A DNA stretch of 64,000 nt, taken from Armatimonadota bacterium. GTDB taxonomy: Bacteria; Sysuimicrobiota; Sysuimicrobiia; Sysuimicrobiales; Humicultoraceae. Both the position numbers and the translations under genes were made by a program. The stretch spans positions 1 to 64,000 of the forward strand of contig JAVHMA010000007.1 in assembly GCA_031081715.1 (NCBI GenBank), in the 5' to 3' direction. How positions within the stretch are numbered: the stretch's first letter is position 1; each line of letters starts with the position of its first letter. This document shows, piece by piece, positions 5,017-57,158 of the stretch. The notes under the pieces were generated by a model that saw only the letters and a program-made list of their open reading frames with translations, was not told where the DNA came from and did not search any database.

Positions 5017-5883
5017 GTGACCGCCCTGGCGACGGGGCTGGTGCTGGCCGCGGCCGGCGTCCACGCCACCTGGAACCTCCTGGCGAAGCGCACCGGCGGC
5101 GGGGCGGCGTTCATCTGGATGACCTGCCTCGCCGGCGGGCTGTTCTACGCGCCGCTCGCCGCGGCCGTCGCCTGGTGGCAGCGGCCGGCGATCGGCCCGG
5201 ATCAGCTCCTGTTCATGGCCGGTAGCGCCGTCCTGCACGCGGGCTACTTCCTGCTGCTCATGCGCGGCTACCGCGCCGGCGACCTGTCCCTCGTCTACCC
5301 GCTGGCGCGCGGTACCGGGCCCGCGCTGTCCACCGCGGCCGCGGTCGCCTTCCTGGGCGAACGGCCCACCGCGCTGGCCCTGACGGGCGCGGCGCTGGTC
5401 GTGCTCGGGGTCTTCGGCCTCACCGGCGGCCCGCGCATCTTCGCGCGAGGCCACCGCGCGACCGGTCGCGCGGTGGCCTACGGCCTGGCGACCGGCCTGC
5501 TGATCGCCGGCTACACGCTCTGGGACAAACAGGCGGTCACCGCGATGCTGATCCCGCCGCTCATCCTCGACTGGGGTGCCAACATGGGCCGCGTCGCGCT
5601 ACTCTCCCCGCTGGCCGTGCGCGGGTGGGACGAGGTCCGGCTCCACTGGCGGGCGCACCGCGTGGAGACGCTGGGGGTCGGGCTGCTTGCACCGCTGTCG
5701 TACATCCTGGTGCTCACCGCGATGGTCTTTACGCCCGTGAGCTACGTCGCGCCAGCGCGCGAGGTCAGCATCCTGGTGGCCACGGTGCTGGGCACGCGGT
5801 TGCTGGCCGAGGGCGACGGCGCGCGCCGGCTGGCCGCCGCGGCCGCGATCGCGATCGGGGTCATCGCGCTCGCGCTCGGCTGA
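5017..5883 (+). CDS. EamA/DMT-family transporter
   Basis: A 288-residue very hydrophobic protein with about ten predicted membrane helices in two EamA repeats. Motifs GVHATWNLLAKR at the start of repeat 1 and SLVYPLARGTGPAL in helix 4 are typical. The family exports or exchanges amino acids, nucleosides and related metabolites. The start is taken as GTG 5017: the frame upstream of it overlaps the LLM gene and has no hydrophobic character, while VTALATGLVLAAAGVHA is the expected first helix. It lies 50 bases after the LLM gene in the same direction and may be the last gene of that operon. Confidence 0.85.
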   Translation: MTALATGLVLAAAGVHATWNLLAKRTGGGAAFIWMTCLAGGLFYAPLAAAVAWWQRPAIGPDQLLFMAGSAVLHAGYFLLLMRGYRAGDLSLVYPLARGTGPALSTAAAVAFLGERPTALALTGAALVVLGVFGLTGGPRIFARGHRATGRAVAYGLATGLLIAGYTLWDKQAVTAMLIPPLILDWGANMGRVALLSPLAVRGWDEVRLHWRAHRVETLGVGLLAPLSYILVLTAMVFTPVSYVAPAREVSILVATVLGTRLLAEGDGARRLAAAAAIAIGVIALALG

Positions 5884-5924
5884 CGCCTGCGCGTGGCCCG
5901 AGCTGGGCACACCCCTGGTGGATT

Positions 5925-6004
5925 CTCCGACAAGGGCAAACCCGCCGCGAGGCGGGGACGCAAAGCCACCGGACCCTCGAGGTCGGCCGGGCTGCCGAAG
6001 AGGA
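5925..6004 (+). ncRNA. Cyclic-di-GMP class I (GEMM-I) riboswitch
   Basis: The conserved core is readable. AGGGCAAACC (5933-5942) leads into a hairpin with stem CCCGCC/GGCGGG (5941-5946 and 5951-5956) closed by a GCGA tetraloop of the GNRA type. Then come GGGACGCAAAGCC (5955-5967), a second short hairpin GACC-loop-GGTC (5972-5984), and the 3' element CCGGGCTGCCGAAG (5987-6000). This matches the GEMM-I aptamer, including the tetraloop that docks into the second hairpin. The 3' end runs straight into a purine-rich AGAGGA (5999-6004) ahead of ATG 6009. Ligand folding could therefore control access to the ribosome-binding site; this mode is an inference. No intrinsic terminator is seen after the aptamer. 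Confidence 0.9.
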
Positions 6005-6008
6005 CCCG

Positions 6009-6200
6009 ATGCCTGCCGAACGCACCGCCCGCGCGCCGGAGGGCGCGCGCGCCCGCTCGCTCGTCTTCTGGTTCGCGACCGCCGCGCTCGTGACCGCTAC
6101 CGCGTTGCTCGCCCCTCCACTGGAGGCCGACCCCGATCTCTGGGGCTGGGACGTCGTCTGCCACGAGGAGACGGCGCTCGGCCCGCCGGCCTGTCGCTAG
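6009..6200 (+). CDS. Small riboswitch-controlled membrane-anchored peptide, function unknown
   Basis: A 63-residue ORF whose ATG lies 8 bases after the conserved 3' element of the c-di-GMP-I riboswitch, with AGAGGA as the likely ribosome-binding site. The N terminus is basic (RTARAPEGARARS), then one hydrophobic helix at about residues 17-36 (LVFWFATAALVTATALLA), then a short tail WGWDVVCHEE with two cysteines (C51, C62). This would place the tail outside the membrane if the positive-inside rule holds. I do not recognise the family. Position directly behind the aptamer makes it the primary target of c-di-GMP control, with the HD-GYP regulator 82 bases further on. A longer in-frame extension upstream overlaps the EamA gene and the riboswitch and is rejected. 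Confidence 0.6.
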   Translation: MPAERTARAPEGARARSLVFWFATAALVTATALLAPPLEADPDLWGWDVVCHEETALGPPACR

Positions 6201-6282
6201 CCGCGCCGCCTAGCCGAACCGCGTTCCGGGCATAGCACCGATAGGATGGTCCGGCGCCAGTGAAGCCGGGAGAAGGCGCATC

Positions 6283-7320
6283 ATGCCCGGGCACCGCGTG
6301 TTGATCGTGGACGACGATTCAGCCACCCGCGAGCTCCTGTCCAAGTTGCTCGCGCCGCACGGCTACGCCGCCACGGCCGTGCGCACGTGGGACGCGGCGC
6401 AGCGCGCGCTCGCGGAGGCCACACCCGACCTGATCTTGCTCGACATCCGCCTGCCCGACGCGGACGGCCGGGCGGCGTGCCGCCAGCTGCGCGGCGCGGA
6501 GGCCACCGCGCAGGTCCCGATCATCCTGATGACGGCGTTCCCCGAGAGCGGCCGGCTCGGCCTCGGGGCGGGCGCGGACGCGGTCCTGCACAAGCCGATC
6601 CGTCGCGAGGAGTTGCTGTCCTGGACCGGGTGCCTGGTCCGAGCGCGGCAGGCCGCGGCGCTGGAGGAGCGGGTGGAGCACGCGCTGATCGCGCTCGCCG
6701 CGACGGTGGAGGCACGCGCCGAGCACCGGCACGACCACCCGCGGTCGGTAGCCCGCTACAGCGAGCGGCTGGCCGAGGCGCTGGGGCTGCCCGAGCGCGA
6801 GATCGCCGTCATCCGCACCGCCGCCCTGCTGCACGACATCGGCATGATCGGCGTGCCGGAGACGATCCTGCAGCAGCCGCGGTCGCTGGCGCCCGGCGAG
6901 CTCGCGCAGGTAAAGCCCCACACGCTCCTGGGCGCGGAGCTCGTGCGCGTGCTGCCCCACGGCGACGAGATCGCGGCGATCGTCCGCTCGCACCACGAGC
7001 GGTGGCACGGCGGCGGCTACCCGGACGGCCTGGCCGGCGAGGAGATCCCGCTCGGCGCCAGGATCGTCGCGGTGGCGGATGCCTTCGATGCGCTCACCGC
7101 GGCGCGGCCGTACCGGGCGGCGCTGGCGACCGCGGAAGCCCTCGACGTCCTGTGGCTCGGGGCCGGCGCCCAGTGGGACCCCGACCTGGTCGAACGGTTC
7201 ACCGCGATCATCCGGCCCGAGGGCCGCACCCCTCGCACACCGGCGGCCGCCGGGCCCCGGCCGATGGACCCGCGCGACGCGCTCGTGCGCTACCTCACGC
7301 TGACCGGCGACCGCCCGTAG
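6283..7320 (+). CDS. Response regulator with HD-GYP output domain
   Basis: 345 residues. The receiver domain (1-120) has the acidic pair D10-D12, phosphoacceptor D54 (LLDIRLPDADG), T84 and K104. The HD-GYP domain (about 130-300) shows H184-D185, H213, H237-H238-E239 and GYP at 245-247, followed by ADAFDALTAARPYR. HD-GYP domains hydrolyse c-di-GMP to GMP or pGpG at a two- or three-iron site. The usual HDIGK motif reads HDIGM here (M188), so a phosphate-contacting lysine is missing; activity is likely but not certain. ATG 6283 has GGGAGAAGG upstream. The riboswitch and 63-residue ORF upstream suggest feedback between c-di-GMP and its own turnover. No histidine kinase gene is adjacent. Confidence 0.93.
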   Translation: MPGHRVLIVDDDSATRELLSKLLAPHGYAATAVRTWDAAQRALAEATPDLILLDIRLPDADGRAACRQLRGAEATAQVPIILMTAFPESGRLGLGAGADAVLHKPIRREELLSWTGCLVRARQAAALEERVEHALIALAATVEARAEHRHDHPRSVARYSERLAEALGLPEREIAVIRTAALLHDIGMIGVPETILQQPRSLAPGELAQVKPHTLLGAELVRVLPHGDEIAAIVRSHHERWHGGGYPDGLAGEEIPLGARIVAVADAFDALTAARPYRAALATAEALDVLWLGAGAQWDPDLVERFTAIIRPEGRTPRTPAAAGPRPMDPRDALVRYLTLTGDRP

Positions 7321-7326
7321 GCACGC

Positions 7327-7359
7327 GCCGGGGGAGCGAGCGTCGCCCGCTCCCCCGGC
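7327..7359. terminator. Bidirectional hairpin terminator
   Basis: A perfect 12-bp stem, GCCGGGGGAGCG (7327-7338) with CGCTCCCCCGGC (7348-7359), and a 9-base loop. It sits in the 58-base gap between the convergent HD-GYP gene and the secreted-protein gene. There is no strong T-tract on either side, so termination may depend on the very stable stem or on Rho. Confidence 0.75.
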
Positions 7360-7378
7360 CTCCCCAGCCCCGGGTGTT

Positions 7379-8266
7379 CTAACGTGACACCGTGAACGGG
7401 TTCCGCGGCGGGCTGTCGCCGCGGGCGCCGAGGTAGACGCGGCCCGCGGACGCCAGGGCGCCGTCGATGAGCAGCGTGAACGTCAACCGCGACCCACCGA
7501 CCCGGAACCTCACGCCGTCGATGCCCTCGGCGGTGACGGTCTCCCAGGCGATCAGGCGTGCGTCGCTAGCCATCGCGTCCTCGTGCGGCTCGAATCGCAC
7601 CGCATCCACATCGAAGAACCGACCGTCGGTCGTGATGAGCCCCGACGCGCGTCGGCTGGTACCACCCATCGTCCAGTGGACGTGGAAACCGTCGCGATCC
7701 TGCCAGACGTAGTACCCGGGGCGGTCGCTGTAGAACCGCGGCCGGCCCGCCAGACCGCGCGACCAGTCGTCGGGCCGCGACGCCTCGCGCAGCCGGAGCA
7801 CGAACGGGTTGCTCACCGCCCGCGCCCGGCCTCGGCCCAGGTGGATCTCATCGGAGCGGGCCAGGCGCCCGTCGATGAGTAGCCGGAACCGGACCCAGTC
7901 GGCGCTCCGAGAGAGCTCGAAGCTGAAGCCCTCGTACCCGCCGCGCGTGCGCGCGGACCAGACGATCGTCGAGCTGCCCCGGCGGATCACGTCGCCGGGG
8001 TCGAGGTCCGCACGCTTCAGGTCGCGGATCTCACCGTCGGTCGTGATGTCGCCGCCGAAGGACCGCACGCGCGCGCCGGCGCGCCACCTGACGTGGAACG
8101 TGTCCCCGTCGGTCCAGATGAAGTACCCGGCGTCGCGGCCGAACGTCTGCGGCTCGCCCTGCGCCGATCCGAGCTCAACCTGCTCGCCGGTCTGGGCACC
8201 GGCCGGGACGATGCCCAGCAGCGCCAGGGCCAGCAGTGCCGCCATGATACCGAGTGCGCGTCGCAT
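7379..8266 (-). CDS. Secreted protein with two tandem repeats, function unknown
   Basis: 295 residues with a clear signal peptide (MRRALGIMAALLALALLG, likely cleavage after PAGA). The mature part consists of two similar units of about 125 residues. Each starts with GYF/YxWxDxDxFHVxW, then a basic stretch, then ITTDGxxxD, and each ends with a WxxxRFRL-or-TFTLLIDGxLA-like strand and an L/YLGxxGxxxxNPF close. This points to a duplicated beta-rich domain exposed outside the cytoplasm. I do not recognise the family. ATG 8266 is preferred; GTG 8275 is an in-frame alternative three codons upstream, and AGGTGAGG lies between them. It is downstream of the GntR gene on the same strand (68-base gap) and convergent with the HD-GYP gene. 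Confidence 0.75.
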   Translation of the reverse strand: MRRALGIMAALLALALLGIVPAGAQTGEQVELGSAQGEPQTFGRDAGYFIWTDGDTFHVRWRAGARVRSFGGDITTDGEIRDLKRADLDPGDVIRRGSSTIVWSARTRGGYEGFSFELSRSADWVRFRLLIDGRLARSDEIHLGRGRARAVSNPFVLRLREASRPDDWSRGLAGRPRFYSDRPGYYVWQDRDGFHVHWTMGGTSRRASGLITTDGRFFDVDAVRFEPHEDAMASDARLIAWETVTAEGIDGVRFRVGGSRLTFTLLIDGALASAGRVYLGARGDSPPRNPFTVSR

Positions 8267-29065: not shown

Positions 29066-30628
29066 TCAGAGGCGCAGCGCGGCCGCCAGCCACCCCGCCA
29101 GCCCCAGCCCCGCGGTCATCAGCAGGGCGTAGCGCAGCGTCACGCGCATGACCCGGCCTTCCTGGCCGGCCGAGCCGGTGGTGGCGGTGGCCAGCACCAC
29201 CTTGGCCGGCGTGACCATCGAGCCCAGCGCCCCGCCCGCACTCTGCAAGGCCGCGATGAGCGTCGGGCTGAGCGCGAGCAGCAGCGCACCGTCGCGCTGC
29301 AGCGCGCCGAAGAGCAGGTTCGAGCTGGTATTGCTGCCGGTGATCACGGTGCCGAGCAGGCCGATGAACGGTGACACGAACGGGAAGAGGGCGCCGAAGG
29401 TGGCCGTGAGGCCGCGGGCCAGCAGGAAGGTCATGCCGCTGTAGTTCATCACCATCGCGACCCAGACGAGCAGCACGATCGTCAGCGTGGTGGGCACGCC
29501 CTGCGCGCGCGCGCCGGCCCACACCGCCCGCCACGCGGGCAGCGCGACGCCGCACCGGCCGTAGAGCAGCGCGGTGAGGGTGGTCGCGTAGAGCAGCAGC
29601 GACCCGGGGTGGCCGGGCAGCGGCAGCACGTAGGACGAGGCGCCAGCGTTCCAGCCGTGCCCGGTGGTGACGCCGGGGAACGACAGCGTGACCTGGACGC
29701 GGCCGAGGGCCTCGCGCAGCGGCCCGACCAGCGTGGCCGCCCCCACCAGGACGATCAGGATCGCGTAAGGGAGGAACGCGAGCCGCGCCGACATCGCCGC
29801 GCGCGCCGGGAGCACCGCCGCTGACGGCCCGTTGCGCCGGTCGGCGTGCACCTGGGCGCGCCGGGCCAGCAGCATGCTGACCCCCATGCCCACCATGCCC
29901 GCGGCGAACGCCGCGATCGTCCACTGCCGGGTCAGCGAGAAGGCGAGCTGGGTGGCGGCCATCGCGCTCCCGAGCACGAGCACGCTCCAGAATGAGCGTC
30001 GGACCGCGGCCCACCCGCCGTGGAGATGGGCCACCGCGAACCCGGTGGCCACGGCAGCCATCCCGAGCAGGATGCAGATCCAGGCGCCCAGCCCCGGGCG
30101 CGGCAGCCCGGTCACGCTCCGGATGGCCTGGAACGATGACCCCATGGTGCCCATCGAGACCGCCCACGAGTGGCCGAGGAGGGGCACCGCCGCGGCTTCC
30201 AGCGGGCCGAACCCCAGCCCGACCAGCAACGGCGCGGTGACCGCCACGGGCACGCCGAAGCCCGCGACCCCCTGCAGGAACGAGCTGAACGCGAAGCCGA
30301 TGATGAGGAGCTGCCAGAGGCGGTCGGTCGTGAGCCGGCCGACCGCGGCCCCGATGCTCTCGATCGCGCCCGCGCCGTCGGCCAGCCGGTCGAGCAGCAG
30401 CGCGGCCCAGATGATGTAGAGCACGTCGAAGCTGACCGCCAGCCCGCGCCCCAGCGCCACGCCGACCGTGGCACCGGGGGCCCGAAACACCGTGACCGCC
30501 AGGGCGAGCGCGACGCCGAGCGCGGCCAGGCCCGACCGCGCGCCGCTCCACCCCAGGCGCAGCAGGGCGACGAGCAGGACGACAAGCGGCAGGCTGGCGA
30601 GCGCGACGTGCCAGAGGTCGACCGGCAT
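29066..30628 (-). CDS. lctP: L-lactate permease family transporter
   Basis: 520 residues with about 13 predicted membrane helices. FSSFLQGVAGFGVPVAVTAP, LLGHSWAVSMGTMGSSF, GTVITGSNTSSNLLFGALQ and QSAGGALGSMVTPAKVVLA are LctP-family signatures. The transporter takes up lactate or glycolate with protons. ATG 30628 has no good ribosome-binding site; TTG 30631 is an in-frame alternative. A long open frame continues upstream over the DUF255 gene but is a shadow there. It is 59 bases downstream of that gene on the same strand, and a TACACT-like -10 on the minus strand near 30656-30661 could give it its own promoter. Confidence 0.92.
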   Translation of the reverse strand: MPVDLWHVALASLPLVVLLVALLRLGWSGARSGLAALGVALALAVTVFRAPGATVGVALGRGLAVSFDVLYIIWAALLLDRLADGAGAIESIGAAVGRLTTDRLWQLLIIGFAFSSFLQGVAGFGVPVAVTAPLLVGLGFGPLEAAAVPLLGHSWAVSMGTMGSSFQAIRSVTGLPRPGLGAWICILLGMAAVATGFAVAHLHGGWAAVRRSFWSVLVLGSAMAATQLAFSLTRQWTIAAFAAGMVGMGVSMLLARRAQVHADRRNGPSAAVLPARAAMSARLAFLPYAILIVLVGAATLVGPLREALGRVQVTLSFPGVTTGHGWNAGASSYVLPLPGHPGSLLLYATTLTALLYGRCGVALPAWRAVWAGARAQGVPTTLTIVLLVWVAMVMNYSGMTFLLARGLTATFGALFPFVSPFIGLLGTVITGSNTSSNLLFGALQRDGALLLALSPTLIAALQSAGGALGSMVTPAKVVLATATTGSAGQEGRVMRVTLRYALLMTAGLGLAGWLAAALRL

Positions 30629-57068: not shown

Positions 57069-57158
57069 GGAGGAGTTCGGGAGCCCGGTACCCGGACGGT
57101 CTCGAAAACCGTTGGGCGCATCCGCGCCTCGTGGGTTCAAATCCCACCTCCTCCGCCA
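57069..57158 (+). tRNA. tRNA-Ser (anticodon CGA)
   Basis: The acceptor stem GGAGGAG (57069-57075) pairs with CTCCTCC (57148-57154), with discriminator G57155 and an encoded CCA 57156-57158. The anticodon arm is ACGGT-CTCGAAA-ACCGT, giving anticodon CGA (codon UCG). A long variable arm (class II) is built on GGGCGC and GCGCC-type bases, and the T arm is GTGGG-TTCAAAT-CCCAC. Length 90 bases fits tRNA-Ser. Confidence 0.96.

Follow-up and report, generated by a model that had tools for sequence, protein, structure and literature searches.

A canonical c-di-GMP-I riboswitch precedes a lineage-specific small ORF and a divergent HD-GYP protein in an Armatimonadota bacterium

Within the 64,000-nt stretch of Armatimonadota DNA analysed here (hereafter the window), a c-di-GMP-I riboswitch lies directly in front of a 63-codon open reading frame (ORF), which is followed by a gene for a response-regulator protein with receiver (REC) and HD-GYP domains. 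The explanation that we find best, with a probability of about 0.5, is that a canonical c-di-GMP-I riboswitch controls translation of the 63-residue peptide together with the REC-HD-GYP protein, which is more likely a receptor than a hydrolase and belongs to a small divergent clade that retains the metal-binding histidines and has lost residues needed for hydrolysis. The features of the locus, by position in the window, are as follows.

5885–5909, + strand: promoter-like GCCTG-N14-TGGGCA, a near-match to a motif of the family
5926–6000, + strand: c-di-GMP-I riboswitch aptamer
6000–6003, + strand: GAGG in the 3' strand of P1; it overlaps a possible Shine-Dalgarno sequence that lies 5 nt upstream of the ATG, and is a proposed switch point
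6009–6200, + strand: orphan 63-codon ORF with one hydrophobic helix or signal peptide and a Trp/Cys tail
6268–6276, + strand: Shine-Dalgarno-like GGGAGAAGG, 6 nt before the HD-GYP start codon
6283–7320, + strand: REC-HD-GYP gene with substituted catalytic positions

Results

The aptamer has the pocket of canonical c-di-GMP-I RNAs

A cmscan search of the window against Rfam 15 returned a single riboswitch, at 5926–6000 (+), which matches RF03167 (c-di-GMP-I-GGC; gathering score 59) with 63.7 bits and an E-value of 1e-12, as it does in a local scan. The parent family RF01051 scores the same RNA at 59.1 bits, above its curated cut-off of 35. The preliminary description, made from the letters alone, had read an aptamer core, a GNRA hairpin and a 3' element here, and the covariance search bears it out. 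P2 is capped by GCGA, a loop of the GNRA type, and the bases at the positions that we take to be G20, A47 and C92 in Vc2 riboswitch numbering are G (5935), A (5962) and C (5995). In covariance architecture, P2 loop and pocket the RNA therefore agrees with GEMM-I (RF01051 and RF03167, clan CL00126).

The higher score of RF03167 raises the question of whether the RNA belongs to the variant class c-di-GMP-I-GGC and recognizes a different ligand. The consensus of the RF03167 model carries a G at the position matching Vc2 A47, and the name of the class would itself read as a pocket triplet. In the alignment the window base at this position is A. Among 70 aptamer copies (11 from the window's own genome, 57 from ten family members and 2 from the wider order), A47 and C92 never vary, 67 have G20 and all 70 have the GNRA P2 loop, so that, judged by its pocket, the window RNA is a canonical c-di-GMP-I aptamer. 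Its score exceeds the RF03167 cut-off while the G in place of A47 is absent from all 70 copies, and we rejected the altered-ligand reading on the strength of the A at A47, leaving it a very small residual chance. The preference for RF03167 over RF01051 probably reflects scaffold similarity, and the window copy would be expected to bind c-di-GMP.

G20 is changed in three of the 70 aptamers, to A in L044 (genome G010, before a sigma gene) and L074 (G003) and to C in L039 (G004). G20A is a change known from cGAMP-binding GEMM-Ib RNAs, and for this reason the three copies may have an altered ligand preference. Elsewhere in the window, a tRNA gene with a long variable arm lies at 57069–57155 (48.6 bits).

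The leader places the start codon within reach of the aptamer

Between the end of the aptamer and the ATG at 6009 are eight bases (6001–6008), as had been described. The GAGG at 6000–6003 is the sole ribosome-binding-site candidate for the ORF and continues P1, and a scan of 5700–7420 revealed neither an intrinsic terminator nor a sigma-70 promoter. Given the short distance, the lack of a terminator in that interval and the continuity of GAGG with P1, the simplest guess is translational control in which c-di-GMP turns expression off. Ligand binding would stabilize P1, whose 3' side carries the ribosome-binding GAGG, making OFF the likeliest sign, and the riboswitch would thereby govern translation initiation of a lineage-specific membrane or exported peptide. 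The REC-HD-GYP protein would be controlled through a transcript presumably shared with the 63-codon ORF. Against this, P1 is weak in the window copy, and free-energy folding of the leader did not recover the aptamer or exceed shuffled sequences (z-scores –0.5 to 1.7).

In lacking a terminator, the window copy differs from many GEMM-I copies of its own genome, several of which (L002, L005, L006, L009 and L011) are followed, as judged by eye, by a terminator-like hairpin and a T run. A start codon close behind the aptamer is also found in relatives (L026, L027, L030, L051, L057, L062, L063 and L069).

The 63-codon ORF is probably coding and lacks homologues

The preliminary description of a tiny ORF with one membrane helix and a Trp/Cys-containing tail fits the sequence: the product has a single hydrophobic segment, whose best 19 residues have a mean Kyte-Doolittle value of 1.91, and a tail containing W and C. 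An Arg-rich N terminus precedes the hydrophobic core, which is followed by a border between PPLEA and DPD that can also be read as a signal-peptide cleavage region. As an alternative to a membrane peptide, these features would fit a 23-residue peptide with two Cys that is set free from a cleavable signal peptide.

Codon usage, scored with log-odds trained on 31 window genes, gives 0.18 per codon. Open 63-codon stretches in other frames reach this value in 2.4% of cases, and 7.3% of stretches from true genes do not exceed it. The ORF is thus probably coding. Searches for related proteins by tblastn in 40 relatives, ten of them from the window's own family, in Pfam, and among 298 small ORFs behind 69 other riboswitch copies found no homologue, and NCBIfam gave one sub-threshold match. 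A scan of the GTDB genome collection, from which the window's own records were left out, gave one match (L084, 54% over 28 residues), which we regard as due to chance: it comes from an unrelated metagenome-assembled genome (MAG) of lower G+C content, and there is no riboswitch there. With no homologue in these searches, the case for the ORF is carried by its codon statistics.

It is possible, though in our estimation less likely than not, that the ORF is a leader or chance ORF that makes no functional protein, the riboswitch acting on the HD-GYP gene by coupled translation or mRNA stability. The lack of homologues in the relatives, in the genome collection apart from the chance match and among the 298 small ORFs would agree with this, as would a reading frame that is open far upstream too, as expected at such G+C content. 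Codon usage well above that of off-frame stretches, a start codon within translational range of the aptamer and a coherent hydrophobic segment behind an Arg-rich N terminus all argue instead for a translated peptide. What had been called an undescribed small membrane protein is indeed undescribed, while its being functional draws no support from conservation in any search, homologues behind other GEMM-I copies included. Lack of conservation of the small ORF had been named in the preliminary description as a result that would refute its reading, and it is largely what we find, though no relative keeps the riboswitch at this site.

Unrelated small hydrophobic ORFs of 36–94 codons follow the riboswitch in relatives (L055, L056 and L072; L024 and L029; L065), among them a WEFWAGVLLAG family and an MRWK family before DUF5317. 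Since such ORFs follow copies across the family, a small membrane protein behind a c-di-GMP-I riboswitch would not be unique there; the sequence of the window peptide appears to be.

The HD-GYP protein has lost catalytic residues and retained most metal ligands

The next gene was correctly identified as encoding a REC-HD-GYP protein, the product of 6283–7320 matching Pfam Response_reg (6e-21) and HD_5 (4e-41), with V-cGAP3, PA4781 and PmGH as its best PDB matches. In PmGH numbering, H189, H221, D222, H250, H276, H277, D305 and D308 are retained, so that all metal ligands except E185 are present. The substitutions are D183A, E185H, R192S, K225M and D281H, so that D183, K225 and D281 are now A, M and H. 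The signature reads HHERWHGGGYP as against HHExxDGxGYP, with H in place of D.

In PmGH, D183A or K225A abolishes activity (PMC4159591). Loss of hydrolysis in the window protein is rated likely at most, because HD-GYP activity cannot always be predicted from such residues (PMC4212101). The protein may still be an enzyme, given the retained metal ligands, this unpredictability and V-cGAP3, which lacks D183 and yet is named a cGAMP phosphodiesterase in the PDB.

Having lost residues needed for cutting, the protein is likelier to act as a c-di-GMP receptor or regulator than in a degradation loop; it would sense c-di-GMP, or signal from its receiver domain, rather than remove the nucleotide. DvhD provides a precedent for a degenerate HD-GYP serving as a c-di-GMP receptor (PMC13090378). 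It and the inactive Bd1817 (described in PMC4159591) share with the window protein the HD-GYP fold, lost catalytic positions and proposed c-di-GMP sensing. DvhD, however, loses the HD and HH metal ligands, whereas in the window protein, which carries a receiver domain, these are retained and D183, K225 and D281 are lost.

The window protein belongs to a divergent clade of three

Of the aligned HD-GYPs of the order, 18 have D183, K225 and D281 all in place; those that do not are the window protein and two others, which form one clade with it (support 100/99). One of the two is an orthologue in genome G005 (52% identity over residues 6–312) with D183S, K225M and D281G. The other, encoded in the window's genome directly behind another copy of the riboswitch (L005), has D183C, D222E, H276C and D281N and retains K225. 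A profile of the three proteins found no further member in 43 genomes (members 330–337 bits, next protein 193). A c-di-GMP-I riboswitch accompanies two of the three members; the G005 member, the closest orthologue, has none nearby, and no relative checked keeps the window arrangement.

A riboswitch-linked HD-GYP at L204 (G015:C478) has HDLGM for HDxGK and an intact HHExxDG signature.

These data bear on the circuit proposed in the preliminary description, in which the riboswitch would control an active c-di-GMP phosphodiesterase, closing a homeostatic feedback loop, along with a functional small membrane protein. An aptamer with an intact pocket, an HD-GYP gene next in line with both domains at full strength and retained metal-binding residues, and copies of the riboswitch elsewhere in the order that precede genes for HD-GYP or GGDEF-HD-GYP proteins speak for it. 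Against it, D183, K225 and D281 are substituted in both the window protein and its G005 orthologue, the HD-GYP gene is only second behind the riboswitch, and the arrangement is not conserved. The proposal was right on the riboswitch and is probably wrong on the enzyme; a feedback loop at this locus is weakly supported, and we consider the circuit as a whole rather improbable.

Control of c-di-GMP over its own turnover genes is stated to be rare in general (PMC6366702). It is plausible within the order, because the riboswitch directly precedes genes for a REC-GGDEF-HD-GYP (L058), a GAF-HD-GYP (L083) and a membrane HD-GYP whose residues are canonical (L082); the window locus is not the best example.

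Riboswitch copies extend to a sigma factor and a promoter-like motif

The window's genome has 11 c-di-GMP-I riboswitch copies. The genes behind them include those for two pilin-like proteins, a TPR-MshEN-T2SSE pilus-type ATPase, a secreted protein with a G8 domain and one with a CAP domain, a periplasmic binding protein, an HD-GYP, a SigB/SigF-type sigma factor and an IS256 transposase fragment that has a hydrophobic segment. With pili, surface and signalling functions, this looks like an ordinary c-di-GMP regulon, in line with the placement of GEMM-I RNAs 5' of pili, secretion and signalling genes.

A truncated IS256/Mutator transposase domain lies behind the riboswitch in three genomes (L003, L045 and L051), with a C-terminal hydrophobic segment in L003, and is apparently a domesticated transposase under c-di-GMP control.

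At least 24 of the 43 genomes of the order, 10 of the 11 from the family and no fewer than 14 others, have a SigB/SigF-type sigma gene no more than 400 nt behind a c-di-GMP-I riboswitch, as established by comparing coordinates by hand. The best NCBIfam match of the sigma is TIGR02980, below its cut-off. In the window's genome, which also encodes a second SigB-like sigma, the gene (29218-30024) lies directly behind the riboswitch of L002 (G000:C41:29076-30024).

Just upstream of family riboswitches, the motif GWCTR-N14-YGGGCA occurs in 22 of 70 regions, where dinucleotide shuffles give 0.09, and 20 of the 22 have a spacer of 14. By leave-one-out scoring, 36 of 67 copies from the window's family, roughly half, lie above the 99.9% level of the shuffles. 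Outside the family just 3 of 41 exceed the 99% level (0.4 expected), which makes the motif mainly a family-level feature. Searched for across the whole of 11 genomes, its strict form has 67 sites, compared with 36 for a reversed control, and about 13 of the 67 sites lie within about 110 nt of a riboswitch. Promoter-like sites of this kind precede, for example, L005, L001, L007 and L008. SigB/SigF promoters have the form GTTTA-N13-15-GGGTA, which the motif resembles.

The window site at 5885–5909, scored with a position weight matrix trained on 20 other riboswitch upstream regions, reaches a leave-one-out score of 11.2 (null p 0.0015), and its offset matches that in L005. It would put the transcription start at about 5915–5918, just before P1, and the window riboswitch is probably transcribed from such a SigB/SigF-type promoter. 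The sigma factor under riboswitch control may read these promoters.

Discussion

Beyond the locus itself, we tentatively suggest, as a possibility, a two-tier regulon in the family: one riboswitch would control the SigB/SigF-type sigma, and that sigma would drive promoters upstream of further riboswitches, the window's included, gating each target twice by c-di-GMP. The targets would include the new clade of non-hydrolysing HD-GYP receptors.

Two systems invite comparison. The Cd1 riboswitch of Clostridioides difficile, located before the flgB operon containing sigD (PMC6366702), likewise is a c-di-GMP riboswitch controlling an alternative sigma factor. Unlike in Cd1, the sigma gene here is of the SigB/SigF type and follows its riboswitch directly, and further riboswitches appear to have a promoter of such a type in front of them. 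The merRNA and FliA regulon of Bdellovibrio bacteriovorus also place a c-di-GMP riboswitch RNA and the regulon of an alternative sigma factor within a single developmental programme (PMC3627812); merRNA, by contrast, stands alone with no downstream gene and is not marked with a FliA promoter in that paper's table.

What is of most interest at this locus is its context, namely the divergent clade of HD-GYPs with its ties to riboswitches, and the double gate that c-di-GMP and a sigma factor may form. The order also offers several cases of a riboswitch before a turnover gene as exceptions to the general rarity of such control. Both riboswitch-tied HD-GYPs of the window's genome have altered active sites, so that what looks like a feedback loop would instead be a protein receptor placed under the control of an RNA. 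Should the link between sigma and promoter hold, a single second messenger would act through riboswitches at two levels, on the sigma factor and in the leaders of that sigma's targets.
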